A stretch of DNA of 62,183 nucleotides from a virus: IMG/VR virus record IMGVR_UViG_3300025141_016207, positions 1 through 62,183 of that record; one strand, written 5' to 3'. Both the position numbers and the translations under genes were made by a program. Positions 1-57,229 of the stretch are shown piece by piece. The notes under the pieces were generated by a model, which saw only the letters and a list, made by a program, of their open reading frames with translations, was not told where the DNA came from and did not search any database. Within the stretch, counting starts at the first letter, position 1. Every line of letters starts with the position of its first letter.

Positions 1-1617
1 ACCACCACCCAAAGAGATGTGTGCAACAACCGTCAACGTCACCGCATTTATCTTTGCAATAGTGCTTGTTGAGTCCAAAGCCACATAGACATGACCATCG
101 TTGCTCGTCGCAACGCCGCGTGAACGCTTGTTGTGGCTGACCGAATTCCACGCTCCGGTAATCGGGTCATAACGAGAAGTATATGTGTTTGTATTCGCAA
201 TCCAGATTTTACCAAACATATCAACATTAATTCCATACGGTGAACCTTTTCCGTTGCCCACTTTGGTCACAGCCTTGGTTTTCGGGTCAACTCTAACAAG
301 AGAACTACAACCCCGACCAGAAACCCAAATAATTCCTTTTTGATCAATGACCAAACCATAAGGATTGCAGTTGATATTGATCATATCAGTAGAAGCTCCC
401 GTCAGGGGGTGCAATCGGCGTAGACGTTTGGAGTTCCAGAACCCCATCCAAGCGTAGTTATCTTTGTCAACGCCTGCGGCTCGCGCAACTGTGGCTCCAT
501 CAGGATAGACAATAAACTTTACGCATTCGTCTTGCTGATAAGGGAGCATTTCATTCGATTCAATTTGTTTATTATTGTTTGTATCCTGCGAAGTTTGAAT
601 CGAGCCATTATTATTTTTATCAATGCATTTGTTCTTTTCGTTAATAATTTTAACAACGCCGCCATCAGAGCGGCAACCCACCCAAACATCACCATTTAGA
701 TCCACAGATGTGCGGGAAGGGCTTCCGCAGACTCGATATCTGCCGACCTCGTTACCAGTTTTAGTATTTAATTTTGAAATAGTCTTTTCAGAAGAGTTTG
801 CGATCCAGATGTGATTCAGATCAACGTTAGACTTGCCAATGTCTAGCTCAATGTAACCGCTCTTATTCTTTTTAATTCCCTTGGAGCTTCCAATGTCAAA
901 CGGAGTTCCAAAATCAGGACCAATCTTTTGCTGAGTGCAAGACAAATCGCACGTCCCACAACTAGAAAGCACGCCTTCATCAATTAAAGCATCACAATCG
1001 TCGTCTTTGCCATTGCAAATCTCTGGGGTCGGGAGTGTTTCACCCTTGCAATCGCCCCAATAGCCACCCTTGCAGAGTTGAACACCGGCTTGACACACTC
1101 CTTTACCGATCCATTGAGGATTTCCGGTATAACAATTGGCAGCAACCCCCTTGCAAGCACACCCAACATAATTTTTCTTGGTGCAGTCGGGACAGACCAC
1201 GGCGAAGTTGGGATTAGAGTCATCGCAGTCTGGTCCAGCATCACAATTTATGCCAAAGCCGTCCTTGTCTTTGTCAATGCAAATAAGTTTCGGTGGTCCA
1301 GTATCTTTTTTTGTTGTATCGGTAGCACTCTGTGTGTCAGAAGAGGACGACGATGTGTCAGATTGTGCAACCTCGGATAAAAAGGTATCCACTTGGCTTG
1401 TAGTGGAGGAATCACTATCCACGATGGCAGTTGCATCGCCGCTAAGAGCAACAGAGTCAGCCGTAGTTGATGAAGTGTCTGATGGTATTAACGTTTGTGC
1501 GTCAGGCGTGTTATAGCCAATAGGAGTTTTAAAATCTTGACCCTTTTGTGAATCGGAACAACCGATCAATAAGGCAAGTATTAAAACTATCTTATTTTGA
1601 AGCCTGAACTGCTGCAT
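1..1617 (-). CDS. Secreted lipoprotein with MopE-type metal-binding motifs and NHL/Vgb-like beta-propeller (3' end cut by window)
   Basis: An open frame of 539 codons runs from ATG at 1617 to the window edge without a stop. Residues 1-20 form a lipoprotein signal (basic start, hydrophobic core, lipobox LLIGC with Cys20), so the product is probably lipid-anchored in the envelope. A Ser/Thr/Asp-rich linker (about 21-105) is followed by DKDKDG near 115, CDDSNPN near 131, a Cys-rich stretch, and EICNGKDDDCD near 199-209, the putative metal-binding motif seen in MopE-like and many myxobacterial proteins. From about 265 there are repeated blades (HIWIANSS, GDVWVGC, GIIWVSGRG, GKIWIANT) typical of NHL/virginiamycin-B-lyase-like propellers. 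It overlaps the preceding gene by 26 bases with a GGGGAT-like ribosome site. The function in a phage is unknown; host surface conversion or exclusion, or a lysis role, are guesses. Family style is clear; role is not. Confidence 0.8.
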   Translation of the reverse strand, partial: MQQFRLQNKIVLILALLIGCSDSQKGQDFKTPIGYNTPDAQTLIPSDTSSTTADSVALSGDATAIVDSDSSTTSQVDTFLSEVAQSDTSSSSSDTQSATDTTKKDTGPPKLICIDKDKDGFGINCDAGPDCDDSNPNFAVVCPDCTKKNYVGCACKGVAANCYTGNPQWIGKGVCQAGVQLCKGGYWGDCKGETLPTPEICNGKDDDCDALIDEGVLSSCGTCDLSCTQQKIGPDFGTPFDIGSSKGIKKNKSGYIELDIGKSNVDLNHIWIANSSEKTISKLNTKTGNEVGRYRVCGSPSRTSVDLNGDVWVGCRSDGGVVKIINEKNKCIDKNNNGSIQTSQDTNNNKQIESNEMLPYQQDECVKFIVYPDGATVARAAGVDKDNYAWMGFWNSKRLRRLHPLTGASTDMININCNPYGLVIDQKGIIWVSGRGCSSLVRVDPKTKAVTKVGNGKGSPYGINVDMFGKIWIANTNTYTSRYDPITGAWNSVSHNKRSRGVATSNDGHVYVALDSTSTIAKINAVTLTVVAHISLGGG

Positions 1618-2666: not shown

Positions 2667-5600
2667 TTATTGGTTAACATAGGCATAACCCTCTTCAGAC
2701 TTTATAATATCAATTGTTGTATCTACCGAGTCTTTCAGGTTATCTATATGTGTAATTAGTAATGTAGTCTTGAAATGTTCTTTTAAGATCTCCAAGATCC
2801 TCGTAAAGCCTTCCATATTATCTGCATCAAGCGCTGTTCCTGGCTCGTCAAGAATAAAAACATCCGGCTTGGGCATATTGCTCACATTGAGAAGCGCAAT
2901 CCGAATTGCCATAGCAGCCAAAGTTTTTTCTGCACCAGAGCCAAGCTCTAATGGTCGATGAGGATATCGAGGATGTTTAATATTAATATCTAACTTGTTT
3001 CCCCTCTCTTCAAAAAATACTTCAAAGTCTACCACATTGGCTAGAATTTCTGAAATGGCTTCATTAATAAATGGAAGCTTCTTCTTGATAATATCAAAAG
3101 CAATTCCGCTTGAATGAAAACATTTCATAAAAAGATCATACGCTGAGAACTCAGTTTGTAGGGCGACAAGTTCAGTTTTCTTTTCTCGGATATTTTCCAC
3201 CTTTTGTTGGAGGGATCCTTCGCCTTTTACGAGTTCGAAGATCTTTTCGGTACACTCAACAAGCGAGTCTTCTAGCTTAATTTTCTGCGTGGCACAAAGT
3301 GTCTGCTGCCACATTAATCTTTCTGCATTGTCAATGGTGTCTTTATGCTCTTTATAGTAATCGAACTCGGCTTGTAGATCTTGGATTTCTTCGTGACGAG
3401 TGGCAAGCTCTTTCTTGTTTTTTTCAAGGAAAAGCTTGTTGCGAGATATTTTTGTTTTTGCCTCGGAAACCTTAAGGATCAGGTTTCGATACTGGCTAAT
3501 AACATTGTCCATGTTATCATCGGTCAAGGTCTCTTCCGCAGCCTTCGCAATTTTCTTCTTGCCCCCAATAGCCAAATCCACATCTTTAATCTGACTTTTA
3601 GCCAAAAACGCATTTTTGATGAATCGACATGATTGAGCATAAACATCACCGCACGGAACCGAATCTAAAATTTTAGCTGATCTCTTTAAGTGGATCAATT
3701 CTGTTTCGCCTTTTTTGATTTCAACAAGAACTTTACCTAACTCTTCCCTCTTGAGGGCAAAATTTTCACGCCTTTTAATTAGTTCTTCAAGGCACATGCT
3801 GTCTAAAGTTTCTTCTGACTTTTCTATAAAAAGTTGTTGATTTTCAATTTCCAGCCTTAAGGCTTCATTGCGATTTTCGCAACGCTCGACAGACTTCTTT
3901 TTAGCTCCAATTTTTTCCTTGACTTTTTTAGGATTAATGATACGATCAGGAATCGCTTCTAACGCCTCTTTAATATTCCGAAGCTCCGTTGCCTTGTTTA
4001 TTATTTTACCCTCGATATCACGACACTCTTGGCGCTTTAATACAAGGTTTTCTTTAACTTTGTCAAATTCTATTTGCGCTTCGGATTCTTCTGTGGTATA
4101 ATCCACGCTTTCCATCCGACGAAGAATTGCCTTCACTTCGGCACACTCATTTTTAGCCAGCTTGAACTTGGTATCAAAGAATTCTAGATCAAGAAATTTG
4201 GCTAACAATTCCTTTCGGCGGGTGGAACCCTCGTTAATAAAATTCATAGCTCCCATCTGAGAAGACATCGAGGTAACGAGGAAATCTTCAAGGGTGCCAA
4301 ATGTGCGTCGGATAGCAGCATCGGTCGCCTTGCGGTCTATGCCATCAAGCGTTTCTTCTTCTCCAGTAACGAGGTCTTTAACCACAAACTTCACATCGGT
4401 TCTTGCTTCAATTGTCACTTCGCCGTGCAATTTGCGTTCATACTTCTCTGATATTCTCTCAATTGTATAAAGCTTTTCCCCCACTTGAATAGTGACCTTG
4501 CCCGATCCCTTGTCTTTGTTTTGGTTAATGATGTTAACATTTTTACGAATATTCTTTGACGTTGAGTTAAACAACGCATAAAGCATCGAATCAACAATAC
4601 TAGACTTACCAGAAAAATTCTTTCCAAAGATGCCGGCAGTTCCGCTCAGTTTATCAAAGTCTACTGAGTTGTTCTCTCCGTAGTTAAAAAGATTATTCCA
4701 CTCTAGCTTCTTGATAGCCCAATTTACATTTCGCACAACGTCTTCTTTTTCCTCTGCTTCGCGATTAAGACGAGTGTTTAATCGATAGACTTCCCTTAAA
4801 AGCTCTTCGCTTGGCTCATAATCCTTGAGGTAATCTTTTATAAACGATTCCTGCACCGCAATATCACGAAGGTTCTTTTCGATGAGAAGCTGGTTCTCGT
4901 TGACAAACGCTTGTCCCTTATAGCGATTAAGATATGTAACACTCTCAGGGCGGAAGCGAGTCTTGACAGCTTCGGTTGCTCTACGAATTTTATCATAAGG
5001 TAGGCGAGCATTGGCTACAACACGAATCCTCGCACCCTGTGGGGCGGTGATATTCTTTGGAAGTCTGCCGCTTGGCGTCAATTCAATTGTAACGAAAGGT
5101 TTTGGATTCTTAAACGAACACATCCTTACATCAAACTTATCTTTGTCCTCGATCTCCCAGATCAAAAACCCCTTGTCGTCTGTCTCGGCAAAGTTCTGTT
5201 GAAGCGTCGAACCACAATAACGCACTCGACCTTCAATGTCAAGCTCTTGATTGGTTTTATGAATGTCGCCCAACATGGCGTAATCGTGTCCCTTGAAAAT
5301 AACCAAATCATGATCGGCATTATCCATCTTCCAGCCCAAATCTGTTTCACAACCCGACACCGCACCGTGATAAAGCGCAATATTGATCTTAGAGTCATCA
5401 GATGGTTTAACCCAATTATCGGTATCAAACACGGATAACACATTGAAACAAACAGAACCAAGGACAAATTCTCCAGACTGCTTTAAATAATGAATATTGG
5501 AATGATTCAAGGCTTTAACAATCGGGGTGATCGCATCCTGCCTTGTAGACGTTCGTAAATTACCATCATGATTGCCGGGGATAATAACAAGCGGCGCAAT

Positions 5601-5810
5601 GTCAGCTAAATTCTTAAGGAAGCCTGATGCAACATCAAAATATTCTGGAGATAAATTAGTCTTAGTGTGCGCCAAGTCACCGCAGTGAACAATAATGTCC
5701 ACCTCTTCTTCTCGGAGCTTTTTATACATTTGATCGAAAACGATCTTATATTGTTTAAGGTATTTTAAATTCCTGACGTGAGTGTCAGATGAGTGAGCTA
5801 TTTTAATCAT
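2667..5810 (-). CDS. SbcD-SbcC (Mre11-Rad50, T4 gp47-gp46) fusion recombination nuclease
   Basis: 1047 aa. Residues 1 to about 220 are a calcineurin-like phosphoesterase of the Mre11/SbcD/gp47 type: SDTH (8-11), GD (44-45), GNHD (79-82), YHGA (147-150) and GDIH (181-184). From about 365 a Rad50/SbcC/gp46 ATPase begins: Walker A GKNFSGKS (396-403), long coiled coils, a hook-like pair Cys720 and Cys728 at the apex, ABC signature LGSGAEKTLAA (955-965) and Walker B VFILDEP (984-990). In T4 and bacteria these are two polypeptides that process DNA ends for recombination-dependent replication; here one uninterrupted frame encodes both. Its ATG overlaps the primase stop (ATGA). All visible catalytic motifs are intact. 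Confidence 0.93.
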   Translation of the reverse strand: MIKIAHSSDTHVRNLKYLKQYKIVFDQMYKKLREEEVDIIVHCGDLAHTKTNLSPEYFDVASGFLKNLADIAPLVIIPGNHDGNLRTSTRQDAITPIVKALNHSNIHYLKQSGEFVLGSVCFNVLSVFDTDNWVKPSDDSKINIALYHGAVSGCETDLGWKMDNADHDLVIFKGHDYAMLGDIHKTNQELDIEGRVRYCGSTLQQNFAETDDKGFLIWEIEDKDKFDVRMCSFKNPKPFVTIELTPSGRLPKNITAPQGARIRVVANARLPYDKIRRATEAVKTRFRPESVTYLNRYKGQAFVNENQLLIEKNLRDIAVQESFIKDYLKDYEPSEELLREVYRLNTRLNREAEEKEDVVRNVNWAIKKLEWNNLFNYGENNSVDFDKLSGTAGIFGKNFSGKSSIVDSMLYALFNSTSKNIRKNVNIINQNKDKGSGKVTIQVGEKLYTIERISEKYERKLHGEVTIEARTDVKFVVKDLVTGEEETLDGIDRKATDAAIRRTFGTLEDFLVTSMSSQMGAMNFINEGSTRRKELLAKFLDLEFFDTKFKLAKNECAEVKAILRRMESVDYTTEESEAQIEFDKVKENLVLKRQECRDIEGKIINKATELRNIKEALEAIPDRIINPKKVKEKIGAKKKSVERCENRNEALRLEIENQQLFIEKSEETLDSMCLEELIKRRENFALKREELGKVLVEIKKGETELIHLKRSAKILDSVPCGDVYAQSCRFIKNAFLAKSQIKDVDLAIGGKKKIAKAAEETLTDDNMDNVISQYRNLILKVSEAKTKISRNKLFLEKNKKELATRHEEIQDLQAEFDYYKEHKDTIDNAERLMWQQTLCATQKIKLEDSLVECTEKIFELVKGEGSLQQKVENIREKKTELVALQTEFSAYDLFMKCFHSSGIAFDIIKKKLPFINEAISEILANVVDFEVFFEERGNKLDINIKHPRYPHRPLELGSGAEKTLAAMAIRIALLNVSNMPKPDVFILDEPGTALDADNMEGFTRILEILKEHFKTTLLITHIDNLKDSVDTTIDIIKSEEGYAYVNQ

Positions 5811-9390: not shown

Positions 9391-10317
9391 TTATACCTTT
9401 TTCATATATCGAATGGGCACATCCACTGAATATCCCATCGTTGCACCAATTACTCGCACTGAGGTGTCAATGAAGCGATAATCGATAGCATTCAAAGTTA
9501 CAGTGCTGCCAAATTTGGTGAATAAGTGTGTAGACGATTGTAGATCCAAGCTTGCCTGAACCATAAATTTATAACTTCCCTGGCGCGGACCAGCAATAAC
9601 AAAGTCGCCTTTACCGCCACCGGGCTTGACCGCCACGGCAGGAGCAATGGGATTAATCAAAAAATACGTCGCTACCTGATCATCGTCTAAGAATGAGATG
9701 TTCTGGGCAACGCCAGGGAGATGTAGCAAGTTGCCCAAGCGATTATCCATCTGTACCATTAATTGAGTTTCGCGCAAGCTATTATCAAACTGCGCGGCTG
9801 GTGGGAGATCCGTTGTATCCAAGCCAAAGTCTACCCTGCAATATTTTGAACCTTCACCGATATTTTGTCCATATAAGACGCCCCTTTGCCCCACCAGGGA
9901 CTTCTCAGTATCCTGATCCACTGCAACCAATTGGATCAGAAGAGTCTCGTTTCGGACAGAGTTCTCGTCGCCGTTGTTGTCACCGCTAACTCCAACATTG
10001 TTAACCTTTGCAACGGGTAAATACAAAATATCCGTTCTTGGAATCGACAGAAGATTATACTTCATCACAGAAGTGTTATTCGTAAACGCTTCGAAAACAG
10101 GAGTTTGCAAGATTGACAAATCATAATAAGCAGAGCCCGAAGCGTGAACGCCACTTGGATTGTTTTCATTCTCGTATAAACGATAATTGATTTCGTCATC
10201 GCCCAGAGCAAATTTAACAATTTTAAAGCTGCCATCACCCTTTGCCATCCTAAATCGTCCGGTATCGGTGAGCACCGCATCTAAAATTATGTCTCCAGAA
10301 TTATCTAAAAAAGCCAT
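9391..10317 (-). CDS. Structural protein with conserved 'FLD...VLT..GR' N-terminus (paralogous N-terminus at 17938-18852)
   Basis: 308 aa, soluble. The first about 45 residues (MAFLDNSGDIILDAVLTDTG then R, ending FALGDDEINY) match the start of the 304-aa protein at 17938-18852 (MSFLDKKEQVVEVVLTPYG then R, ending FYDNDIIYD), while the bodies diverge. A shared N-terminal module on two virion-region proteins suggests a common docking element. The remainder is beta-rich with no catalytic motif. It starts with AGGAGTAAGAAATG and sits between the 1288-aa protein and the paralogous pair. Tail or baseplate location is inferred from context only. Confidence 0.6.
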   Translation of the reverse strand: MAFLDNSGDIILDAVLTDTGRFRMAKGDGSFKIVKFALGDDEINYRLYENENNPSGVHASGSAYYDLSILQTPVFEAFTNNTSVMKYNLLSIPRTDILYLPVAKVNNVGVSGDNNGDENSVRNETLLIQLVAVDQDTEKSLVGQRGVLYGQNIGEGSKYCRVDFGLDTTDLPPAAQFDNSLRETQLMVQMDNRLGNLLHLPGVAQNISFLDDDQVATYFLINPIAPAVAVKPGGGKGDFVIAGPRQGSYKFMVQASLDLQSSTHLFTKFGSTVTLNAIDYRFIDTSVRVIGATMGYSVDVPIRYMKKV

Positions 10318-40395: not shown

Positions 40396-41319
40396 TTAAT
40401 CCTTGCCTACAACTGAATGATTGGCAAATCTTTCCATCAATTGTTTTAAATCTTCGTTCTCTAGTTCTACATGCAAAATCTTTTTCTCCCAACGCAACTC
40501 GGTCGCAACTGGATCAATTCCCATGATATCATACCTGATTTTTAAATTTAACGTATCGCCCGAAAGAGGGAGAGGACTCTCAACCACCTGTTGCTTAATG
40601 CCCTGATTTACCATGTTTTTAATGATATTGGATTCGTGATCGAATGATCCAGTTCTAGCTCTCTCTAACAACCCTATAATTTCAGATGCTTTTCTATAAC
40701 CCCACTTTACATATTCTTTTTGGAGAAGCTTCTCATCATAAATGCGTTCACCAAGCGACGACATATCTTGAGCCGACCATACATAAATGTGATGCCCAAA
40801 ATCCTTTGCACCGGCAACCAAATTTAAAGATTGCGCCAAACTTTTTCCGCATTTTGCACCATGAATTTCACAATATAACTTATCAATATACCTTAAAGTG
40901 CCATCATTATATAATTTTTGCAACACCTCGTATTCGGCTCCTTCAATATCAAGCTTTAAAATAATTGTGTCACTTTCTAAAAAATTATCCTTTATCCAAG
41001 AACTTAAATCAAAAGATTCTGCCTTTCTTGGATTATGCGCGTATTTGTCTTTTATAACACTAGAACCTTCGTCTGCGTCGTCATACCACGTTATAGTTCC
41101 ATCTTTTACCCACACAGCTTTAGTATCCCATACCGCACTTTTAATATTTTTTTCCAAAACAAGTCTGGACATAATTTTTAAACCAGCTTGTTTAAACATG
41201 CGGCGATCTGAAATCTCAAAACAATAAGCCTCATATTCGCCGCTATCTGCATAGAGACTCGAAAAGGCTTCTAGAGATTCGCCTTTGTGTGCTCCACAGT
41301 CTATAAAAACTTTTTTCAT
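40396..41319 (-). CDS. FkbM-family methyltransferase
   Basis: 307 aa. The SAM-binding loop is VFIDCGAHKGESLEAF at the N-terminus, and the FkbM signature is IILKLDIEGAEYEVLQKLYN about 120 residues later. FkbM enzymes O-methylate sugars or polyketides with S-adenosylmethionine. The C-terminal about 100 residues are an extra beta-containing region (LNLKIRYDIMGIDPVATELR). It is the last member of the carbohydrate island; a second FkbM gene sits at 48138-49025. Methylation of the island's sugar product is the likely role. Confidence 0.8.
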   Translation of the reverse strand: MKKVFIDCGAHKGESLEAFSSLYADSGEYEAYCFEISDRRMFKQAGLKIMSRLVLEKNIKSAVWDTKAVWVKDGTITWYDDADEGSSVIKDKYAHNPRKAESFDLSSWIKDNFLESDTIILKLDIEGAEYEVLQKLYNDGTLRYIDKLYCEIHGAKCGKSLAQSLNLVAGAKDFGHHIYVWSAQDMSSLGERIYDEKLLQKEYVKWGYRKASEIIGLLERARTGSFDHESNIIKNMVNQGIKQQVVESPLPLSGDTLNLKIRYDIMGIDPVATELRWEKKILHVELENEDLKQLMERFANHSVVGKD

Positions 41320-41325
41320 AATCTG

Positions 41326-42012
41326 TTAATCCAACATAAATACTGATAGGATCTCTTCGCCATTAGCGACTTGACCTCTCTTGGTTTTCAGTATCATTTT
41401 ACACTTGAACTCCGGTTCCATTAGCTTCCTCAAAGATTTTTCAGAAAAATAGTGATAATGTCCATCGAATGGTTCCTTACTGTGTAATGTCCGGTTTACT
41501 GGAACTTGTATAATTGCCTTGCCTGTTTTATTAAGCAACTTTAATAATTTATTCTTATAATGTTTTGGGTCGTAAAAATGTTCCAGAACATCAAAAGAAA
41601 TAATAACATCGTATTTAGAATTCTCCGGTATATTTTGCATCGAACATCCAAATACCTTTATACCCTTGTTTTTTGCAGCAGAAGAGAGATTTTCATCTAT
41701 TTCACATGCATGATAATTTTCTAAACCAAATTTTTCTTTAAAAATATCACAAAAATGTCCATACCCTAAGCCGATTTCCAACACCCTATCAGCGGCGCAT
41801 ACATAGTCCCCTATCAAGCTGAGTTTGGTTGCTCCTCTGGCTTTTATGGGCGCGGTTTGAACCGCAGGTGTTATTTTTTGCCTATAAAGATTTGTGTAAT
41901 AATCTTTCAAATCTATTGCGGAATAATTTCTGAAGACATGTTCACATTCATCGCACTTACAGACCTTTTCTCTTATATTTTCAATTGTGTTCTCACAAAT
42001 TATACATTTCAT
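41326..42012 (-). CDS. Class I SAM methyltransferase with N-terminal zinc-binding motif
   Basis: 228 aa. The N-terminus carries a Cys cluster (CIIC, then CKCDEC), as in zinc-ribbon-preceded Methyltransf_23 sugar methyltransferases. The SAM site is VLEIGLGYGHFCDIF, with a DVIISFDVLEHFYDP motif and an HSKEPFDGHYHYFS segment. It is a clear paralogue of the protein at 43710-44423, which has the same HYHYFS/HSHYFS ending and zinc region. Such enzymes act on nucleotide-sugar methyl groups or lipid-linked glycans. It has an AAGGAG site upstream. Confidence 0.78.
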   Translation of the reverse strand: MKCIICENTIENIREKVCKCDECEHVFRNYSAIDLKDYYTNLYRQKITPAVQTAPIKARGATKLSLIGDYVCAADRVLEIGLGYGHFCDIFKEKFGLENYHACEIDENLSSAAKNKGIKVFGCSMQNIPENSKYDVIISFDVLEHFYDPKHYKNKLLKLLNKTGKAIIQVPVNRTLHSKEPFDGHYHYFSEKSLRKLMEPEFKCKMILKTKRGQVANGEEILSVFMLD

Positions 42013-42025
42013 AAAATCAAATTTT

Positions 42026-42895
42026 TTACTCCTTTAATAAAAAATCACACACAGGCTTTTTCCAATCGGGCAACGAATCATAAAAACTTTTTTTAATTTT
42101 AAACGAAATGGATTGTTCTTTGCCATCGGCAAGTTCTGGATGCACCACGAAGTTTATAGTAAACATGAGGCGTGAGCCTTGGCGAACCTTCTGCCCCTTG
42201 TGCCAGCCGTTGGTCCAGCCCATAAGCAAATCTCCTGCTTTCGCAGTGCAGCGTTTTATGCTTTGCTTGCTATAGGCATTTTCTAGTTCAGCATCCATCC
42301 AACGTTGTTTGGCGTCCCACCCGCTAAACATTTTTGCATTACTTCCTTCGACGTAGGTAAAGGGACCAGTATGAATATCTACATCATTTAAATAAGCAAA
42401 AAACTTTATTATCCTTACACTATTAAAATCACGATGAAACAAATTGGTAGTTCTTGAAGGGAGATTGTTGGCATAGCTTTTACGCAAATTGCATGTGCCA
42501 ATTGCCGGTAAACAGCCATAAAACGAAGCCGCCATCTCTATAATTCTGTCGTCAAAGGCAATTTGAGCGGCACCCTCTATATTGTACAGGGGCTGTGCAA
42601 TCATCGAATGTTCTTCATTATGAATCTTTAAAGATTGTCCTGTCTTTATTAAATTCTCCGTGTCTTCACGCATTTTATCGATAAACTCTTTGTCAAAAAA
42701 GTTCTCTATTTTCGTGTAGCCTTTTTGTTTTAAATCATTAACATATGGCTCATATTTTGAACTAGCACTATGGGGATGCTGCGCGGTGCGATCGACATAT
42801 TTTTGATTATAATACTCTACTGCCTCTCTGCCATTTTTTAAAAGCCAATGCCCATAAAAGTTCGCTTGATTCGGTTGTATCCAAGATGTCGTCAT
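42026..42895 (-). CDS. PhyH-type Fe(II)/2-oxoglutarate dioxygenase
   Basis: 289 aa. The metal-binding triad is visible: HRD (HxD motif) in TTNLFHRDFNSVRI, and a distal His in NGWHKGQKVRQGSRLMF followed by an Arg suited to bind 2-oxoglutarate. Phytanoyl-CoA-dioxygenase-like enzymes hydroxylate small molecules or sugars. It is paralogous to 46299-47237 along its whole length (NFYG...; DWKKP..DFL ending). Together with the next gene it repeats a two-oxygenase cassette. AGGAGATTTA precedes the ATG. Confidence 0.8.
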   Translation of the reverse strand: MTTSWIQPNQANFYGHWLLKNGREAVEYYNQKYVDRTAQHPHSASSKYEPYVNDLKQKGYTKIENFFDKEFIDKMREDTENLIKTGQSLKIHNEEHSMIAQPLYNIEGAAQIAFDDRIIEMAASFYGCLPAIGTCNLRKSYANNLPSRTTNLFHRDFNSVRIIKFFAYLNDVDIHTGPFTYVEGSNAKMFSGWDAKQRWMDAELENAYSKQSIKRCTAKAGDLLMGWTNGWHKGQKVRQGSRLMFTINFVVHPELADGKEQSISFKIKKSFYDSLPDWKKPVCDFLLKE

Positions 42896-42903
42896 TAAAT
42901 CTC

Positions 42904-43713
42904 CTAATCTAAATTATAAACTTTAACATTTTTCTTCGGCAAAATCGTGCGAGTGCGGTGATTAAAATAAGAGTCCATTTTTTGTAGGCTTGGGCGTATA
43001 AAAAGAAAAAGACAATCTCTGGGAGCAGTGTGTGATTGGGGAATTGTTGCGCGATGCATGATATTAGGAGTCAACATTCCGTAAGTGCCGGGGGGACCAA
43101 TTAGGCTTTGTTGCCGACCTCCTTTCTTGCAAATTTCATCAATAACCTTTGGTGGGATGCGAGAGCCTTTGTAAAGTTGCTGTCCGATACCCATGTGAGG
43201 CGTATGCCGAGAGGAAGGAACAATCGGTGCATTATTTTTTTCATCCACCATAAACTGAAAACAACCGTTTTCTTCCGTCACCTCATTTAAATAAACCACA
43301 AATTTTAAAAATTCTCTTGGGCAATCATCATAATGCCACAGCCAGGATGCGGCTGGCTTCTCTTTGGTAGGATTGTTGCGATAAGGCATCACAAATTCAA
43401 CTTGTATTCCACAATGAAAAATTTCTCTCTCTACTTGCGGCGCAACATGATTTACAAACGCTTTAAGGCTTTCTATTTCCAAACAATCATTTACATAGCG
43501 AGCAAAGGAAGAACCATTATAGCATCCTAAATTATTATCTAGTCGGTATCTTATGTCTTTTGCCAGTTCCTCTACCAAAGAAAAATATCTTTCGTCTGTG
43601 GCGAGAAAATCGGCATCAATAGACAAATCATACAAAGAATCATATTTATCCCCCGAGGAAGTGACCGGATTGATTTCTAAACATCTTTTATAATGTTCGG
43701 CATAGGTTTTCAT
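42904..43713 (-). CDS. Fe(II)/2-oxoglutarate-type oxygenase, paralogue of 47247-48053
   Basis: 269 aa from the ATG at 43713. A TTG at 43734 would add 7 residues, but the ATG aligns with the paralogue's start (MKTYAEHY vs MLTYKEHY), has GGAGAAGAGAAA just upstream and overlaps the preceding stop as ATGA. The HxD motif lies in SWLWHYDDCPREFLKFVVYL, and the distal His in PNIMHRATIP, with an Arg in RDCLFLFIRPS. The fold is that of cupin-like dioxygenases. Substrate unknown; location suggests oxidation of a sugar intermediate. Confidence 0.7.
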   Translation of the reverse strand: MKTYAEHYKRCLEINPVTSSGDKYDSLYDLSIDADFLATDERYFSLVEELAKDIRYRLDNNLGCYNGSSFARYVNDCLEIESLKAFVNHVAPQVEREIFHCGIQVEFVMPYRNNPTKEKPAASWLWHYDDCPREFLKFVVYLNEVTEENGCFQFMVDEKNNAPIVPSSRHTPHMGIGQQLYKGSRIPPKVIDEICKKGGRQQSLIGPPGTYGMLTPNIMHRATIPQSHTAPRDCLFLFIRPSLQKMDSYFNHRTRTILPKKNVKVYNLD

Positions 43714-44423
43714 TTTCTCTTCTCCCATACACACAACATTTCTTCGCCTCTAGCCAAAGAGCCCCTATTACCAAAATAAATTTGCAAAGCTTTAAAATCA
43801 CTCTCAAATAGATTAAGTATTGAGTCTTTAGAAAAATAATGAGAGTGACCATCAAAAATCGGGTTTGGGGGCACCATTGTTCGATTTATAGGAACCTGTA
43901 ATATCAAAAACTTATTAACAATTTCTGCCATCTTTTCTTTAAACTTTTGGATATCCAAAACATGCTCTAACACATCCATCCCGATAACCACATCAAACCC
44001 TTGATCAATTTCTAAAACACTTTTATTAATAACCTCAAAGCCCAAATTGGCGCACTTATCGGTCATTTTTGTATCGATATCGGAACACATAATTGTTTTT
44101 ACATAGTCTTGTGCCTTTACCGCAAACAAGCCGTCGCCAGAGCCAATTTCCAATACCTTAAACTCTTCACTTAAAAAATCCTTCGTAGCGTTTAAAAACG
44201 TATCAATATACTTATATCTTTCTTTAGAAGAATACATGGCATACCCCTCTTCTCCCTTAATCCGATACTTTTCTCTATGGTATTCTTCAACATCGCCTTT
44301 AAAATATCTAAAAATGTGATCGCAAAGTTTACACTGATGGGTATCTGATATGAGGTTGTTCTGCCAATAATAATTGGAGTTATAAGACTTTTCGGCGCGG
44401 CAAGCGTGACATCTATCCAACAT
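43710..44423 (-). CDS. Class I SAM methyltransferase with zinc motif, paralogue of 41326-42012
   Basis: 237 aa. Zinc-type cysteines are Cys5, Cys8, Cys31 and Cys34. The SAM loop is VLEIGSGDGLFAVKA (about 90-104), then FDVVIGMDVLEHVLDI and GHSHYFSKDSILNLF. The family is the sugar/glycan methyltransferases with an N-terminal zinc knuckle. Its start is a TAATG overlap with the DUF115-like gene, and its end an ATGA overlap with the oxygenase gene, so it is part of one translated run. Methylation target unknown. Confidence 0.78.
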   Translation of the reverse strand: MLDRCHACRAEKSYNSNYYWQNNLISDTHQCKLCDHIFRYFKGDVEEYHREKYRIKGEEGYAMYSSKERYKYIDTFLNATKDFLSEEFKVLEIGSGDGLFAVKAQDYVKTIMCSDIDTKMTDKCANLGFEVINKSVLEIDQGFDVVIGMDVLEHVLDIQKFKEKMAEIVNKFLILQVPINRTMVPPNPIFDGHSHYFSKDSILNLFESDFKALQIYFGNRGSLARGEEMLCVWEKRK

Positions 44424-45523
44424 TACGCGGCACCTATTTTTCTCTTGATGGTATCAGGCAACGGGCACAAAGTTCTAGAGACGGTGGCAAGCGTATTGTA
44501 TTTCTTTTCTTCTCCTAAGTTATAAATATTAAATTCATATTTGTGCTTCAAGTGAAAAATGTAATCCCAAAATATTAAATTTTGGCGGGCTTGAAATCTG
44601 TCTCCATGCAAGTTGTACCACTTTGGAACCCGCTTTTTGCTGTTAAAGGCGTGCAGTAATTTACCGTCTTTTTCTACCTTATTCCGACCATCAACCCCAA
44701 CAAAATAAACATCCTTAGCACCACTAAAAATAGCCAGGGCAATCATTCGCACTCCCGTGCCAATAACCGACGAATATCTGGTATACCAATGACAAGAGTT
44801 GGAGGGGTATCTTTCTACAAAGGACTTCACAGGATCTAGTGGAACCTGATCATATAAATAAGTCACGAGGGGGAAAGAAATTATCGGGGCGTCACGCCTC
44901 ATTATATCATTTAATTCTTTATTATCAAGGTCAACCACTGAAGCAAGCGCTGCAAAATCAATTTTTACATCTTGTAATTTGTCATTTTTGTAAAATTCAT
45001 TACAGGTCCATAAATAATCATAATCCACAGCTTGCCAATCCACTTCGTTAGCGGAAGGACCGCCGCACACGATCATTATCTTCTTGCCTGTATATCGATT
45101 AAAATGATTATCAACATTCGAAATGAAAAACTCTCCTGCGTCATCGAAGACAAGTTCCTGTGTCTTGAAGACATCTATTTTGTCAACGATTGTGGAATTA
45201 TATTCTTCCAGTATATTTTCAAAATATTTATTCTGTGCTGGTACAAAAAAATGCTGTTCTTTTTTCGCATTTTTAAGCGTCACATATTGGGCATCACTGA
45301 AAAATTGATTATCCCTGGTGTCGAGCCACACGCTTCTTGGCGGCGGCGCTTCGTCACCACATATATCCAGAACATGCTTATGAACTCTCTTAATGTTAAT
45401 GCTACGGTTGTTGTTAATATACACCGTAGCATTTTCATGAAGTTCTTTATCTATGCCCGACCAGAAAGAACCTTCGTCATAAAGCAGAGTGCAATCATCT
45501 AAATGTGTTCCTAACTCTATCAC
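44423..45523 (-). CDS. DUF115/Maf-like (MptE-type Rossmann) protein, probable nonulosonate-handling transferase
   Basis: 366 aa with a GTG start in a GTGA overlap with the neuA-like gene. The core at about 149-300 (IMIVCGGPSANEVDW, then YDYLWTCNEFYKND, a central SSVIGTGVRMIALAIFSGAK, then DVYFVGVDG) matches the 6-hydroxymethylpterin pyrophosphokinase/DUF115 Rossmann family that includes Campylobacter-type motility accessory factors, which transfer nonulosonic acids to flagellin. It is paralogous to 52560-53573. Here a transferase role is an inference supported by the neighbouring NeuA- and NeuB-like genes. Confidence 0.7.
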   Translation of the reverse strand: MIELGTHLDDCTLLYDEGSFWSGIDKELHENATVYINNNRSINIKRVHKHVLDICGDEAPPPRSVWLDTRDNQFFSDAQYVTLKNAKKEQHFFVPAQNKYFENILEEYNSTIVDKIDVFKTQELVFDDAGEFFISNVDNHFNRYTGKKIMIVCGGPSANEVDWQAVDYDYLWTCNEFYKNDKLQDVKIDFAALASVVDLDNKELNDIMRRDAPIISFPLVTYLYDQVPLDPVKSFVERYPSNSCHWYTRYSSVIGTGVRMIALAIFSGAKDVYFVGVDGRNKVEKDGKLLHAFNSKKRVPKWYNLHGDRFQARQNLIFWDYIFHLKHKYEFNIYNLGEEKKYNTLATVSRTLCPLPDTIKRKIGAA

Positions 45524-46206
45524 TTGGTAGGCACCCCTTTATACAAAGCTTCACAAAGTTTAAATTGCCATTCATAATCAATATCAAAGACCTCTTCTTC
45601 TTTTACCACAAAAAGCTCTGGCTCGGGAGGCACCTTTGTATCCATCCAACAACCACCTTTAACAATATCAAGCCTGCTAGCATATAAACAATGCGCGGCT
45701 TCGTAAGTTATGTTCATGGTTTTTGTGTTCATTAGTTTTTGGTCTTCAGGCCACGGACTAATCATCTTCCCGGTGGCGTCCCAAAAATATTGCTTTTTGG
45801 CTATTACAGCAAACATGCCATCATCCGAGGAAGAAAGATAACTTCTCATAAAGTTATCAATGGTCTCCGTGGTTAATAGCGGAGTACAAGCACTTATCAA
45901 CACAACATATTTATAATCCAACTTATCGTGCCACTCATAGATATCCGTAATGCTGTTTTCTGCCATAGCAGATTTTTCACTTCTATGAAAAATATTAACG
46001 CCGTGCTTTTCGCCTATCTCGACCAATTCTGGTTCGTAAACCGACAAATAAAAGTTTTCCTTTGGAATGACTGAGGAATTCAAAACATTCACAACCCCTA
46101 TATCTGTCAATGTTGTCCCGGCGAAAGGGCGAGTCATTTTTTTAGGAACACGCTCCGAATTTAAACGAGCTTGTATCACCACACACACATCTTTAATATC
46201 CTTCAC
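45520..46206 (-). CDS. NeuA-like CMP-nonulosonate cytidylyltransferase
   Basis: 228 aa, the usual length. N-terminal VVIQARLNSERVPKKM is the nucleotidyltransferase entry with basic residues for CTP; a Ser/Thr-rich helix, LISACTPLL (substrate loop) and the C-terminal VFDIDYEWQFKLCE (metal-binding Asp plus WQF) are characteristic of CMP-sialate/KDO-type cytidylyltransferases. It would activate a nine-carbon sugar with CTP to CMP-sugar. GTG start with GAGGAT. It lies just after a strong terminator and has an overlapping promoter of its own (46252-46280). Confidence 0.8.
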   Translation of the reverse strand: MKDIKDVCVVIQARLNSERVPKKMTRPFAGTTLTDIGVVNVLNSSVIPKENFYLSVYEPELVEIGEKHGVNIFHRSEKSAMAENSITDIYEWHDKLDYKYVVLISACTPLLTTETIDNFMRSYLSSSDDGMFAVIAKKQYFWDATGKMISPWPEDQKLMNTKTMNITYEAAHCLYASRLDIVKGGCWMDTKVPPEPELFVVKEEEVFDIDYEWQFKLCEALYKGVPTK

Positions 46207-46218
46207 GCTAATATCCTC

Positions 46219-46256
46219 AAAAAAAAAATAATGGACCCACTTAGTGAATCCATTAT
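46219..46256 (-). terminator. Intrinsic terminator after the oxygenase pair
   Basis: On the minus strand, ATAATGGA pairs with TCCATTAT (8 bp, 46228-46235 with 46249-46256). The stem continues, after a two-base mismatch, with three further pairs (CAC/GTG) around a TAA loop, and a run of T residues follows immediately. This is a classic rho-independent terminator placed between the PhyH-type gene (ends at 46299) and the neuA-like gene (starts at 46206). Confidence 0.8.
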
Positions 46257-46280
46257 AACTTGTTAAAAAATAAAAGTTAA
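46252..46280 (-). promoter_or_regulatory. Sigma70-type promoter for the neuA-like gene, overlapping the terminator
   Basis: Minus-strand TTAACT (46275-46280), a 17-base spacer, then TATAAT (46252-46257). The expected start point lies inside the terminator hairpin just behind it, so an RNA made here lacks much of the outer 5' arm of the stem and can escape termination, while transcripts arriving from upstream form the whole hairpin. The -10 is a perfect consensus; no experimental support exists. Confidence 0.55.
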
Positions 46281-46298
46281 TCCCAAAATATCAATCGT

Positions 46299-47237
46299 TT
46301 AAACCTTCCATAAAAAATCTGCGGTGGGCTTTTTCCAATCTGGAAAAGCTTCAACATCTTCTTTTCTTATACAATGACGCTCATCAAGGGGCACCTCAGA
46401 CTTGTGGTTATAACCACCCAACTCAGGATGGATCAAATAAGTAAAATGGATTGCAGTTCTTTCAGCCTTCGTCGGTTTTTGTCCCTTATGAAAACCATAG
46501 GTATCAGCCATCAATAAATCGCCAAATTTTGCTGTTATTGGTAAAATACTATCTTTACCATAAAGAGCCTCGACCATTTCATCAGTGGGGTAATGATGAT
46601 TCCACCATCCATTAAACATTTTTCTATTGCTTCCGGCGACATATGTAAATGGTCCACCACCCTCCTCAACATCATTCAAGTAAATAACAAATTTCATCAT
46701 TTTGACCAAACTATTATAATCACGATGATAATTTTGGTTGGTCAGAGGGGGAGCATCATTCACAAAACTTCTCCTTACGGCAACTGACCCCATGGCTGGT
46801 CGACAACCATAATAAGCTGTCGCAATATTGATCAATCTATCATCAAATAAAATTTCTGGAAGCGATGTTAAATTTAACAAAGGCTTATTAATATAGATCA
46901 TCTGCTCGCTAGGGTATTTTAGATTTGTATTGGTATCAATGCTGCTTTGAATCTCCTCTCTAATGTTTTGCAAAATTTTCATTTGTTCTTCATTAAAAAA
47001 ACTTTCAATCTTGGAATAACCTAAGTTTTTCAAATTTTCAGCATGTGGCTTCGCAACAGAATCAATTTCAAATGAATATTTTTCCTTTCTATTCTGAAAA
47101 TTTTCATTCCAATATCGAATAGCCTCTACGCGGGCTTTCTGGTGATCCTGCGCCGGGGCGTCACAAGTGTGAAAACCATAAAAATTAGCATCTTCTGGAT
47201 AAATCCAACTGAGTCCTTGAGTTTCTATATTAATCAT
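46299..47237 (-). CDS. PhyH-type Fe(II)/2-oxoglutarate dioxygenase, paralogue of 42026-42895
   Basis: 312 aa. The HxD motif is NYHRDYNSLVKMMKFVIYL, and the distal His/Arg region is YGFHKGQKPTKAERTAIHFTYL. Same order as in the copy at 42026-42895: NFYG near the N-terminus, a GY-[ST]-K-IE-FF segment, GGPFTYVAGSN and a DWKKP..DFL end. Soluble, cytoplasmic. It lies directly after the second oxygenase gene, and the terminator at 46219-46256 follows it, so the two oxygenases form a compact unit driven by the promoter at 48090-48117. Confidence 0.8.
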   Translation of the reverse strand: MINIETQGLSWIYPEDANFYGFHTCDAPAQDHQKARVEAIRYWNENFQNRKEKYSFEIDSVAKPHAENLKNLGYSKIESFFNEEQMKILQNIREEIQSSIDTNTNLKYPSEQMIYINKPLLNLTSLPEILFDDRLINIATAYYGCRPAMGSVAVRRSFVNDAPPLTNQNYHRDYNSLVKMMKFVIYLNDVEEGGGPFTYVAGSNRKMFNGWWNHHYPTDEMVEALYGKDSILPITAKFGDLLMADTYGFHKGQKPTKAERTAIHFTYLIHPELGGYNHKSEVPLDERHCIRKEDVEAFPDWKKPTADFLWKV

Positions 47238-47246
47238 TTTATTTTC

Positions 47247-48053
47247 CTAATTTAAATCATAAACCTTAACATTTCGACCTGACGCAATGGAATAAGTGTT
47301 CTCGTTAATATAAGATTCGCGATTCGCAAGCGATGGTCTAATAAAAAAGAACACACAATCTCTTGGAATAGTCCCAACTTTGGGAACGGTAGCGCGATGG
47401 TAAATGTTAGGTGTAATTATTGCATATGTGCCGGGGGGTCCAACTAAATCTCTTATGTGACCGCCCTCTTCTACTTTTTCTTGAATAACTGATGCCGGGA
47501 TTCGCGAGCCAGCATAAAGTTGCTTTGGAGTGCCCCCAGTGGGAGAAACGCGACGAGAAGGAATTACAGGAATGCTGCCGTCAGCAGCTTCTAAATACCG
47601 AAAACATCCATTATCTTCATCAACTTCATTTAAATAAACCACAAATTTCAAAAATTCATTTGGGCAATCATCATAATGCCAAAGCCAGGACGCCACTGGT
47701 GGTGCGCCGGGAATATTCCGGTAAGGGGCGACAAACTCGATTTGTGCGTTACAATGAAAAATTTCTGCCTCGATACGGGGCATAATGTGTTCCGCAAGTT
47801 CTGAAATTTCGGGAATGTCTCTCCACTTATCGAGATAGAGAGCCGTGGCTCTTTTTACGCAGCCCTCATTATTATCAAACTTGTCGGCGAGCTTGGGAGC
47901 CAATCTTTTAATTATATCACGATATGCCGGATCGTCGCCAAGGAAGGTGCCATCAACAGTAAGATCATAAAGAGATTTATATTTTGATTCTGGCGTTGCA
48001 GGTAGAGCGGCGCTTTCTAAGCTTTTTTGATAATGTTCTTTATATGTCAACAT
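47247..48053 (-). CDS. Fe(II)/2-oxoglutarate-type oxygenase, paralogue of 42904-43713
   Basis: 268 aa. HxD in SWLWHYDDCPNEFLKFVVYL, distal His in PNIYHRATVPK, and IPRDCVFFFIRPS near the end. Identical segments with its paralogue (SWLWHYDDCP, LKFVVYLNEV, GSRIP, GPPGTY, NVKVY) show a duplication. The ATG has AAAGGAGA in front and follows a promoter-like sequence. Its role is inferred as oxidation of a sugar intermediate because both copies sit beside a PhyH gene in the carbohydrate island. Confidence 0.7.
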   Translation of the reverse strand: MLTYKEHYQKSLESAALPATPESKYKSLYDLTVDGTFLGDDPAYRDIIKRLAPKLADKFDNNEGCVKRATALYLDKWRDIPEISELAEHIMPRIEAEIFHCNAQIEFVAPYRNIPGAPPVASWLWHYDDCPNEFLKFVVYLNEVDEDNGCFRYLEAADGSIPVIPSRRVSPTGGTPKQLYAGSRIPASVIQEKVEEGGHIRDLVGPPGTYAIITPNIYHRATVPKVGTIPRDCVFFFIRPSLANRESYINENTYSIASGRNVKVYDLN

Positions 48054-48089
48054 TGTACGATCTCCTTTAAAGCATTGTCACATATAACA

Positions 48090-48117
48090 ATTATAAAAGC
48101 CTTTTAAACAATGTTAA
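48090..48117 (-). promoter_or_regulatory. Sigma70-type promoter for the oxygenase pair
   Basis: Minus-strand TTAACA (48112-48117), 16-base spacer, TATAAT (48090-48095), about 37 bases before the ATG at 48053. It lies in one of the few real gaps (48054-48137). The spacer holds a short palindrome (AAAAGGCTTTT) that could be an operator; that is speculative. Confidence 0.5.
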
Positions 48118-48137
48118 GAACCCTTTTTTGATTTGCG

Positions 48138-48326
48138 TCAATTATATTTACCAAGTGCCCTTTTTATATCACGAGCGACAACTTCTTTAAAAAATTTAAG
48201 GTCTGCCTTTAGAGTTGAAATCTCATCAGAAATGTCGCTAATTCTAATCCTTAATTCAATAATTTGTTGATGGTCTCGACTTGTCAACTGAGATATAATC
48301 TTTTCTTGTTGTTCCTTCAAACTCAT
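48138..48326 (-). promoter_or_regulatory. Internal in-frame ribosome site and ATG; possible separate 62-aa coiled-coil product
   Basis: Inside the FkbM frame an AAGGAG (48332-48337) lies 5 bases before an in-frame ATG at 48326. Starting there gives a 62-aa coiled coil (MSLKEQQEKI to the shared stop). Either the coil is simply a C-terminal extension, or the gene makes a full-length and a short product, or the two were once separate genes that fused by loss of a stop. Confidence 0.4.
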
Positions 48327-49025
48327 TTTTTCTCCTTGGGTTGTTTTCGCTTCAAGTGGCGAACTACAAAAAACCATATTATCTTTTTGCACAAAATTTT
48401 TGTAGTTAGATTTTAACATAGAAATTAACCGATCATATTCGGGAGCGATCCTGCTTTTGGAGGGTTTCCCGTGTATCTCCATAGAAAGGGTGTGGATACG
48501 CGGAAACAAACCCATTTTTTCAGCATGAAATAAAATTTCATATTCCGATCCCTCCACGTCCATTTTTAGGAAATCAATAAAATCAATCTGTTGTTCTTCG
48601 AAAAGCTCATTTAAAGAAAGTGAATCAATTTGTCGTGGGGTCCATTCTTGACCAAATCTATCTTTTCCACGATAACTTTTATTGTTGTCATAAATACAAG
48701 TATTGCCGCCAGGGTTGCGCGAGAAGGCGATGCCAATTGGTTCACTATTGCCAATCAAAGCCTTATTGTAACAAAGAATATCTACATCATCATCAATTAC
48801 ATTTTCCTTCAAAACCTCAAATATATCCCCCAATGGTTCAAAACTAAAAATTTTGCACTCAGGATATAAACTGGCAGCAAGAATAGTAAAAACGCCCATA
48901 TTTGCGCCAGCGTCCACAATAAATCGTGGAGTTCTAATTGGCTTCCACTGATTCACAAAACCATAACAATCCTTTGTCCATACCTCTTTCACCAATTCAC
49001 GAAAGAAATATTCTTTATCTCTCAC
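48138..49025 (-). CDS. FkbM-family methyltransferase with C-terminal coiled coil
   Basis: 295 aa, GTG start after GGGAGATTAAC. The SAM-binding part is FIVDAGANMGVFTILAA, followed by IFSFEPL, then the FkbM motif FLKMDVEGSEYEILFHAEKM and SMEIHGK. The enzymatic part ends near residue 230. The last 62 residues form a Lys/Glu-rich coiled coil (EQQEKIISQLTSRDHQ, ISDEISTLKADLKFF) not needed for the fold. A well-placed internal ribosome site sits exactly at the junction (see separate entry). Likely O-methylates a sugar of the island. Confidence 0.78.
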   Translation of the reverse strand: MRDKEYFFRELVKEVWTKDCYGFVNQWKPIRTPRFIVDAGANMGVFTILAASLYPECKIFSFEPLGDIFEVLKENVIDDDVDILCYNKALIGNSEPIGIAFSRNPGGNTCIYDNNKSYRGKDRFGQEWTPRQIDSLSLNELFEEQQIDFIDFLKMDVEGSEYEILFHAEKMGLFPRIHTLSMEIHGKPSKSRIAPEYDRLISMLKSNYKNFVQKDNMVFCSSPLEAKTTQGEKMSLKEQQEKIISQLTSRDHQQIIELRIRISDISDEISTLKADLKFFKEVVARDIKRALGKYN

Positions 49026-49026
49026 G

Positions 49027-49395
49027 TTAATCTCCCTTTGTCACACGATAACTATCTTCATCGAAATGCTGAGTGGAAAACTCAAACAACTCTGAATCTT
49101 CAAGGGCGTGCATTTGATGCCTCAAACCAGCGGGAACATAAAAGTTCTGCCCAGGCTCAAGAAGTATTTTATTGGCGAGTTCGGGATTATCCTCGGCGCT
49201 ATATTTAACAATTAATTTGCCGGATTGAAGATAAAATACTTCATCTTTAATTTTGTGGTAATGCCAAGAGCATCGCCTTCCCCCTTCAAAGAAGAGCAGT
49301 TTCCCACAATATTCTGATTTATTAACAATCCACTTTTCATAACCCCATCCCTTTTTCACATATTTCATAGGAATGTGAATTTGTTTATTTACCAT
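49027..49395 (-). CDS. Cupin-fold sugar enzyme or sugar-binding protein
   Basis: 122 aa. Cupin motif 1 is CSWHYHKIKDEVFYLQSGKL (His45, His47, Glu52 for metal) and motif 2 is GQNFYVPAGLRHQMHALED. This resembles the C-terminal cupin of mannose-6-phosphate isomerase/GDP-mannose pyrophosphorylase-type proteins and stand-alone isomerases of polysaccharide loci. It overlaps the end of the SDR gene by 7 bases. Probably cytoplasmic and acting on a sugar or sugar phosphate of the same pathway; the reaction is unassigned. Confidence 0.7.
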   Translation of the reverse strand: MVNKQIHIPMKYVKKGWGYEKWIVNKSEYCGKLLFFEGGRRCSWHYHKIKDEVFYLQSGKLIVKYSAEDNPELANKILLEPGQNFYVPAGLRHQMHALEDSELFEFSTQHFDEDSYRVTKGD

Positions 49396-50210
49396 ACTGA
49401 TTTTCCCCCATCAATAACAACGTTTTCACCCGTCATATAAGAACTAGCATCCGAACACATAAAAGCAATTACACCCTTATATTCGTCAATATCAGACATT
49501 CTCCCCATAGGAATAAGATTAGTAAGCTTGTTCACAAAATCTTCGGGATGATCATTATACACCGCAGTTGGACTGATGCAATTAACACGGATACCCTGTT
49601 GGGCATAATAAACTGCTAAATACTTAGTCATCCCCACAATTGCCCATTTTGCTGCGGAATAGGTTACAGGTTTAACATTCTGCATGTCTTCGGCTAGCCC
49701 ATCTTTACGATAAATTCTCTGATCAGGTGCAATCACCCCCAAGTCGGACGCAATATTTAAAATCACACCACCATCGTTCTTCAACATTCTTTTGGCTGCT
49801 GCCTGCGAGCAGAAAAAAGTACCGTTCATCGCGGCGTCGACGCCCTCATACCAATACTCTGGAGTCATCGTTTCAAAGCGGCTGTCGGGCGTTAAGCCGC
49901 CGTTCTTTTTAACCTTCGGGTCTTTAGCCGCATTATTAATTAAGATGTCTACAGCGCCACAGACCGCAAACACGGCACTAACTGATTCGGGATCGGTAAC
50001 ATCCATATGATGGGCTACCGCGCAGTCTTTTCCATATTTTTTATTTAGTTCTTTAGCCTTCGCTTCGACCCGATCTAAATGATGATCTGTCAAAACAACG
50101 GACCCCCCAAACTCAATTATAGCCTCGGCGTGCTTCGGACCTAAAAGCCCTCCTGCGCCCGTGATTAACGCCGTTTTTCCCGTTAAATCAAACATATCAC
50201 GCGCATTCAT
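49389..50210 (-). CDS. Short-chain dehydrogenase/reductase (sugar oxidoreductase)
   Basis: 273 aa from ATG at 50210, which follows GAGGAGATTTATA; an in-frame TTG at 50225 overlaps that ribosome site and is unlikely to be used. The Rossmann start is TALITGAGGLLGPKH, then LVTD/HHLD-like adenine-binding region, NNAA, and the catalytic YSAAKWA, followed by NCISPTAVYND. The protein is a classical SDR using NAD(P). In Campylobacter legionaminate loci a related SDR (PtmA) is present, and the family mix here is similar. It overlaps the TIM-barrel gene by 14 bases. Confidence 0.8.
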   Translation of the reverse strand: MNARDMFDLTGKTALITGAGGLLGPKHAEAIIEFGGSVVLTDHHLDRVEAKAKELNKKYGKDCAVAHHMDVTDPESVSAVFAVCGAVDILINNAAKDPKVKKNGGLTPDSRFETMTPEYWYEGVDAAMNGTFFCSQAAAKRMLKNDGGVILNIASDLGVIAPDQRIYRKDGLAEDMQNVKPVTYSAAKWAIVGMTKYLAVYYAQQGIRVNCISPTAVYNDHPEDFVNKLTNLIPMGRMSDIDEYKGVIAFMCSDASSYMTGENVVIDGGKSVW

Positions 50211-52542: not shown

Positions 52543-52559
52543 AAACCCCTCCTTGTTAA

Positions 52560-53573: not shown

Positions 53574-53575
53574 TC

Positions 53576-57225: not shown

Positions 57226-57229
57226 TTAT

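Follow-up and report, generated by a model that had tools for sequence, protein, structure and literature searches.

A Cys-rich β-propeller lipoprotein of Myxococcota type encoded by a large myovirus-like phage

The left end of a viral record from IMG/VR holds a phage gene for a Cys-rich β-propeller lipoprotein whose bacterial counterparts are surface-type lipoproteins of Myxococcota. The identity of this gene is well supported. In the reading that we prefer, with a probability of roughly 0.45, it derives from a Myxococcota-type surface lipoprotein that was taken long ago and kept as late accessory cargo altering the surface of the infected cell.

The record and the lipoprotein gene

The stretch of DNA analyzed here (the window, 62,183 bases) is the whole IMG/VR record. 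Its gene content, including an SbcCD-like nuclease, baseplate-wedge genes and PhoH at the right end, is that of a large myovirus-like phage, and all its major genes are carried by the minus strand, as are the lipoprotein gene, its features and the neighboring genes located below. The lipoprotein gene (1-1617) is the outermost gene on the left of the record. It starts with an ATG and encodes 539 amino acids in a reading frame that is open at the record end, the 3′ end lying outside; because the window is the whole record, the sequence left of base 1 is absent. Full-length viral homologues are 677-713 amino acids long. The first 26 nt of the gene (1592-1617) are shared with the end of the phage gene lying upstream. 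No match to Rfam was found in the window, and scans of the window for promoters and terminators yielded nothing clearly above shuffled sequences.

Anatomy of the protein

The protein begins with a lipoprotein signal peptide (1558-1617) harboring the lipobox LIGC at residues 17-20, within the string MQQFRLQNKIVLILALLIGC; Cys20, conserved in the phage homologues, is the predicted site of lipidation. Lipobox calls were made by pattern alone, without a signal-peptide predictor. The anchor is followed by a Ser/Thr/Asp-rich linker of 92 residues (residues 21-112; 1282-1557), predicted to be disordered and composed at 60% of D, E, S, T, P and N. This long linker is missing from the chromosomal single-module homologues aligned, including L124, the closest of them. 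Then comes a Cys-rich module (residues 113-227; 937-1281), which displays a DxDxDG motif and a MopE-like CNGKDDDCD motif (strings CIDKDKDGFGINCDAGPDCDDSNPN and EICNGKDDDCDALIDEG), matches PF11617 at 976-1026 and lies upstream of the propeller blades. The mature part of the protein contains 23 cysteines. The β-propeller itself, of the Vgb/NHL/YVTN type, extends from about residue 258 (1-846) and is incomplete at the record end. Inserted in it is an EF-hand/dockerin-like loop, CIDKNNNGSIQTSQDTNNNKQIESNE (residues 331-356; 550-627), which is conserved in the chromosomal homologues and may bind calcium, judging from its motif.

Pfam matches of the window sequence alone stay below threshold: 2.2e-5 for Vgb_lyase, 1.8e-5 for SGL, 0.003 for NHL and 0.026 for MopE. 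The window copy reaches 15-20 bits against PF11617 (Cu-binding_MopE, cut-off 27 bits), for which the homologue of the viral contig L154 scores 27.4 in the genome search and 22.2 in the Pfam scan. Likewise, the window copy misses the 50-bit cut-off of PF24684 (Vgb_lyase) with 23.9 bits, whereas the viral homologue L222 passes it with 55.2. The propeller resembles virginiamycin B lyase (Vgb) in sequence and fold, but Vgb is an enzyme and the window copy remains under the Pfam cut-off; its domain is described as a propeller and not assigned as a lyase. A phmmer search of the PDB with the window protein retrieved the PknD β-propeller (1rwi, 4.9e-7). The AlphaFold2 model of the L154 homologue (713 amino acids) comprises a disordered segment (residues 1-114), a confident propeller at residues 270-580 (pLDDT about 90) and a C-terminal β-sandwich. 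Foldseek placed β-propellers at the top of the PDB matches to this model; 1l0q, a YVTN propeller from an archaeal surface layer, came first, and the lower ranks included virginiamycin B lyase, NHL and BtuG-type surface lipoproteins. A C-terminal PYTYSDMTG domain is present in the phage copies L154 and L156, and its C-terminal part also in L222 and L224; its position in the window gene falls past the record end.

The first-pass annotation had described a lipobox, a Ser/Asp linker, DKDKDG/CDDSNPN and CNGKDDDCD motifs and propeller blades in the manner of Myxococcota surface proteins, and all of these elements were found. The resemblance is not due to chance, because the 23 mature cysteines come with one co-linear match of 330 bits to a Myxococcota lipoprotein.

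A phage gene with copies in other phages

Co-linear copies sharing 47-65% identity are found in six other viral contigs (L154, L155, L156, L222, L223 and L224), the L154 lipoprotein being 62% identical to the window protein over the aligned length. Alignment query A2 recovered L154, L155 and L156, and query A5, built from the phage copies, added L222/L223 and L224; a single-sequence scan of IMG/VR had missed copies that these queries later recovered. tblastn against 50,697 INPHARED phages revealed no relative, and a search of plasmids gave two weak propeller matches only. The contigs concerned are diverse: the L224 copy lies between a major head protein gene (phrog_138, 3.5e-68) and neck/tail-sheath genes, and L156 is another kind of phage, with an NAD-dependent ligase, a thymidylate kinase and an RNA ligase/tail-fibre attachment catalyst. 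In an unrooted tree made by a quick method, the five distinct phage copies group in a single clade with an SH-aLRT of 99, and all five of these propeller copies keep the lipobox, the linker and the Cys-rich module. A single clade spread over differing contigs and positions therefore indicates one gene family that has moved between phages and between positions.

The location of the gene at the extreme end of the record would fit an assembly artefact or a bacterial flank, in which a phage contig had been fused at its end to a Myxococcota gene. We give this virtually no credence. The gene overlaps its phage neighbor, its codon usage correlates with that of the other window genes (r 0.876), and its GC3 is 0.42, as compared to 0.62 for the Myxococcota homologue L124. 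Moreover, the separate contigs L154 and L155 hold the 62% identical homologue in the same slot, and the clade is made of phage copies only. L154/L155 and L224 refute the artefact in practice. The proposal that this is a phage gene and not a host flank is thereby borne out. Neither observation that would have spoken against the first-pass annotation was made: the relatives of the gene are not restricted to phages, and no integration junction was seen.

Bacterial relatives and the host

The nearest bacterial kin found are chromosomal Myxococcota lipoproteins, as had been anticipated. The best homologue, L124 (genome G173, 634 amino acids), has the same domain order as the window protein, to which it is 41% identical in a single 330-bit match over residues 109-533 (alignment A1). 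The gene adjoining L124 is, as we read its sequence, presumably dihydrolipoyl-dehydrogenase-like. In a pattern-based scan of 84,980 genomes for the Cys-rich module, nearly all of the matches listed were Myxococcota or deltaproteobacterial MAGs. The propeller search matched 56 of 195 Myxococcota genomes at 1e-6 (best 1.7e-69), with a homologue in all three genomes examined of the best-matching order. A control phylum, to which the Patescibacteria genome G004 belongs, gave one match among 287 genomes, and neither a lipobox nor a Cys-rich module was seen in the N-terminal part of this lone protein.

With its Cys-rich module and propeller co-linear behind a lipoprotein signal, the window gene fits the Myxococcota propeller-lipoprotein family. 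Like the phage copies, L124 and L127-L132 possess a signal with a Cys (a lipobox in L124 and L128), one MopE-like module, the EF-hand-like loop, the propeller and a YTYSDMTG-type C-terminal domain, and they are 33-41% identical to them along the length. Unlike these Myxococcota lipoproteins, the phage copies carry an acidic linker of 71-103 amino acids after the lipid anchor, have a phage-like GC content and form a separate clade.

A Myxococcota-like host is likely, to judge from these sequence relationships. A search of 193 Myxococcota genomes for relatives of the phage terminase, run without a positive control, found none. The tRNA genes, absent from the window and numbering three in the relative G200, are uninformative on the host. 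GroEL-like chaperonin genes occur in the phages L259 (phrog_5725), L240 and G200 (139733-141307), the latter two recognized from sequence only, and may possibly be used for host inference.

An accessory slot next to spanin-like genes

Upstream of the lipoprotein gene, from the nearest outwards, are sp147 (1592-2035), a spanin-like gene with a signal peptide and a C-terminal hydrophobic WWFAGGV segment that is conserved in more than 40 phage contigs; tm139 (2028-2447), spanin-like by its topology of an N-terminal TM segment and a coiled coil; hol69 (2448-2657), a holin-like small membrane gene by topology only; and the SbcCD-like nuclease (2667-5810), which serves as a syntenic anchor of the phage lineage. 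The first-pass annotation had termed this neighborhood a lysis-like cassette: the topology of the small TM/coiled-coil genes agrees with this, although no PHROG or Pfam lysis family was matched.

In relatives of these neighboring genes, sp147 precedes ds155, p210 and the genes for the terminase large subunit and portal. Among the 55 distinct sp147 alleles whose contig also carries ds155, 43 have no insert of size between the two genes and 12 have one, mostly tail-fibre-like proteins. The window gene sits after sp147, at what is an accessory slot of the phage lineage, the other side of which lies past the record end. In L154 and L155 (contigs of 159.6 and 121 kb), the order is sp147, a 204-amino-acid protein, the lipoprotein, a 100-amino-acid protein, ds155, p210 and the terminase, and the window lipoprotein probably resides in this same sp147-ds155 slot.

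To note, the 100-amino-acid protein directly after the lipoprotein in L154 (11788-12087) carries a second copy of the C-terminal WWFAGGV segment found in sp147, as if the insertion had duplicated or split this gene. In L155 (near 9650-9860), the signal-peptide region and the remainder are in different reading frames (645 amino acids instead of 713), which reflects a frameshift or an assembly error. The slots of L011, L012, L179, L187, L192 and L195 contain tail-fibre-like genes, several with S74-chaperone-like ends.

The slot evokes two other functions. A virion-associated or receptor-binding protein, replacing the tail fibres that relatives encode there, is improbable: most of the 12 occupied alleles do hold fibre-like genes and the L224 copy has head and tail genes around it, but the lipobox and the 23 mature cysteines imply export and oxidation and are thus at odds with virion assembly in the cytoplasm. 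Furthermore, the full-length L154 model shows neither a trimerisation nor an S74-type domain, and the gene position varies in other phages. Still less probable is a giant o-spanin that would act at the outer membrane in lysis. Rz/Rz1 spanin genes overlap, and the 26-nt overlap with sp147 and the adjoining TM/coiled-coil gene are reminiscent of them; yet in 54 of the 55 related alleles no such lipoprotein separates the spanin-like gene from ds155, the L224, L222 and L156 copies are away from spanin-like genes, and the protein is not small, proline-rich and Rz1-like. An o-spanin of Rz1 type was set aside on its size and on the lack of a constant i-spanin pairing.

A wider class of viral MopE lipoproteins

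Query A5 drew 39 further viral contigs with MopE-like stretches. A set of 39 viral proteins was assembled, the window and L154 copies among them. PF11617 matches 38 of these (E up to 0.01), and a lipobox pattern is likewise present in 38; their C-terminal part contains the DxSGS metal-site string in 28 cases, a Pfam VWA domain in 18 and a propeller in 5. Portal (L261), UvsX-like recombinase (L235), ribonucleotide reductase (L239) and head and sheath (L224) genes are found on class contigs; only several of these contigs were checked for phage genes, so the tally of true phages is provisional. The existence of a viral lipoprotein class is well supported. The window gene, which encodes a lipobox, a MopE-like module and a C-terminal binding domain on a viral contig, is a member of it, and more than the one-off moron that had been envisaged. 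It is rather probable that uncultured tailed phages of several lineages share modular outer-surface lipoproteins from Myxococcota-like bacteria, which remodel the surface of the infected cell, and of which the window protein is a propeller-type member; the class architecture would then be a lipid anchor, a MopE Cys-rich stalk and a VWA or propeller head. No report of phage MopE, VWA or propeller lipoproteins was found in a mainly open-access literature search, and their novelty is provisional.

Beside the propeller type, L226-L264 provide about 34 distinct viral MopE lipoproteins, mostly with the VWA metal-site motif. In L232, L234, L236, L257 and L258, the MopE/VWA lipoprotein adjoins a protein of 98-115 amino acids with 2-3 TM segments and an ‘EANPxM’-like motif, possibly its partner. 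A HELxHH metalloprotease-like gene follows the VWA-type lipoprotein at a distance of one or two genes in L232, L234, L236, L246, L251 and L254, and in L226-L230 (viral contigs of 41-236 kb) the VWA lipoprotein adjoins site-2-protease-like and DnaJ-like genes.

The VWA members, together with CglB, suggest the main rival to an exclusion or masking role: a surface conversion adhesin, by which infected cells would stick to neighbors, prey or particles and progeny would meet new hosts. CglB reportedly has a VWA domain, and as a surface lipoprotein with such a domain it resembles most of the wider viral class (28 of 39 with the DxSGS string, 18 by Pfam). It is known as a cell-surface lipoprotein adhesin of Myxococcus xanthus (PMC12288465), likened here by description and not by homology, and the closest bacterial family of the window protein also consists of surface-type lipoproteins. 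The window copy, however, harbors a propeller and, by Pfam and motif, no VWA domain with a DxSxS metal site of the CglB type, and the gain for a lytic phage is speculative. We consider this adhesin role unlikely for the window protein.

A host-envelope lipoprotein as the proposed role

Superinfection exclusion or receptor masking by a late host-envelope lipoprotein is the role that appears most likely. The gene stands in a co-directional phage array after sp147, where relatives have nothing or mainly tail-fibre-like genes. Its product would be exported by Sec, lipidated at Cys20 and folded outside the cytoplasm, with disulfides in the Cys-rich module. It would then be anchored in the outer membrane of the host, the long acidic linker projecting the Cys-rich stalk and the propeller. 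Taken jointly, these first three steps are highly probable. The last and least certain step is more tentative: the propeller of this late product might bind or mask a host receptor, or mimic a host surface protein, and infected cells and debris would adsorb neither further phages nor progeny. The late-gene placement is deduced from synteny.

Precedents are found in better-studied phages. Receptor blocking is the function of the T5 lipoprotein Llp, whose gene adjoins that of the receptor-binding protein pb5 (PMC9586334). The window protein is, by prediction, a phage-encoded outer-membrane lipoprotein like Llp/Cor, but Llp is a small periplasmic protein, the two showed no homology, and the viral copies are modular, Cys-rich and, at 677-713 amino acids, beyond the Llp/Cor size. 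Ltp of Streptococcus thermophilus phages is also a phage lipoprotein, reported to be surface-exposed and used in superinfection exclusion (PMC3952083); it belongs to temperate phages of a Gram-positive host and is likened by description only. Against exclusion, L222, L226 and L239 were not seen adjoining structural genes, known exclusion lipoproteins are small, and VWA and propeller domains are equally typical of adhesion and of receptor masking.

The presence of similar genes in dozens of uncultured viruses suggests that cells infected by such viruses have their surface remodeled. Most known phage lipoproteins that alter the envelope are small and come from laboratory coliphages and dairy phages. 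If a large, modular, Cys-rich class is indeed spread over dozens of environmental viral contigs, phages would also take over entire surface-protein architectures, with predatory or social bacteria as the probable source; the surface proteins of such bacteria are themselves poorly understood. Few phages of Myxococcota-like hosts are known; the class offers a marker by which they could be tested for, as well as a gene set ready for surface display and exclusion assays.

Elsewhere, the window encodes a surface-sugar island (40396-59784) with two NeuB-type synthases (51682-52563 and 53576-54400), a cytidylyltransferase, PhyH-type dioxygenases, a cupin and several glycosyltransferases.
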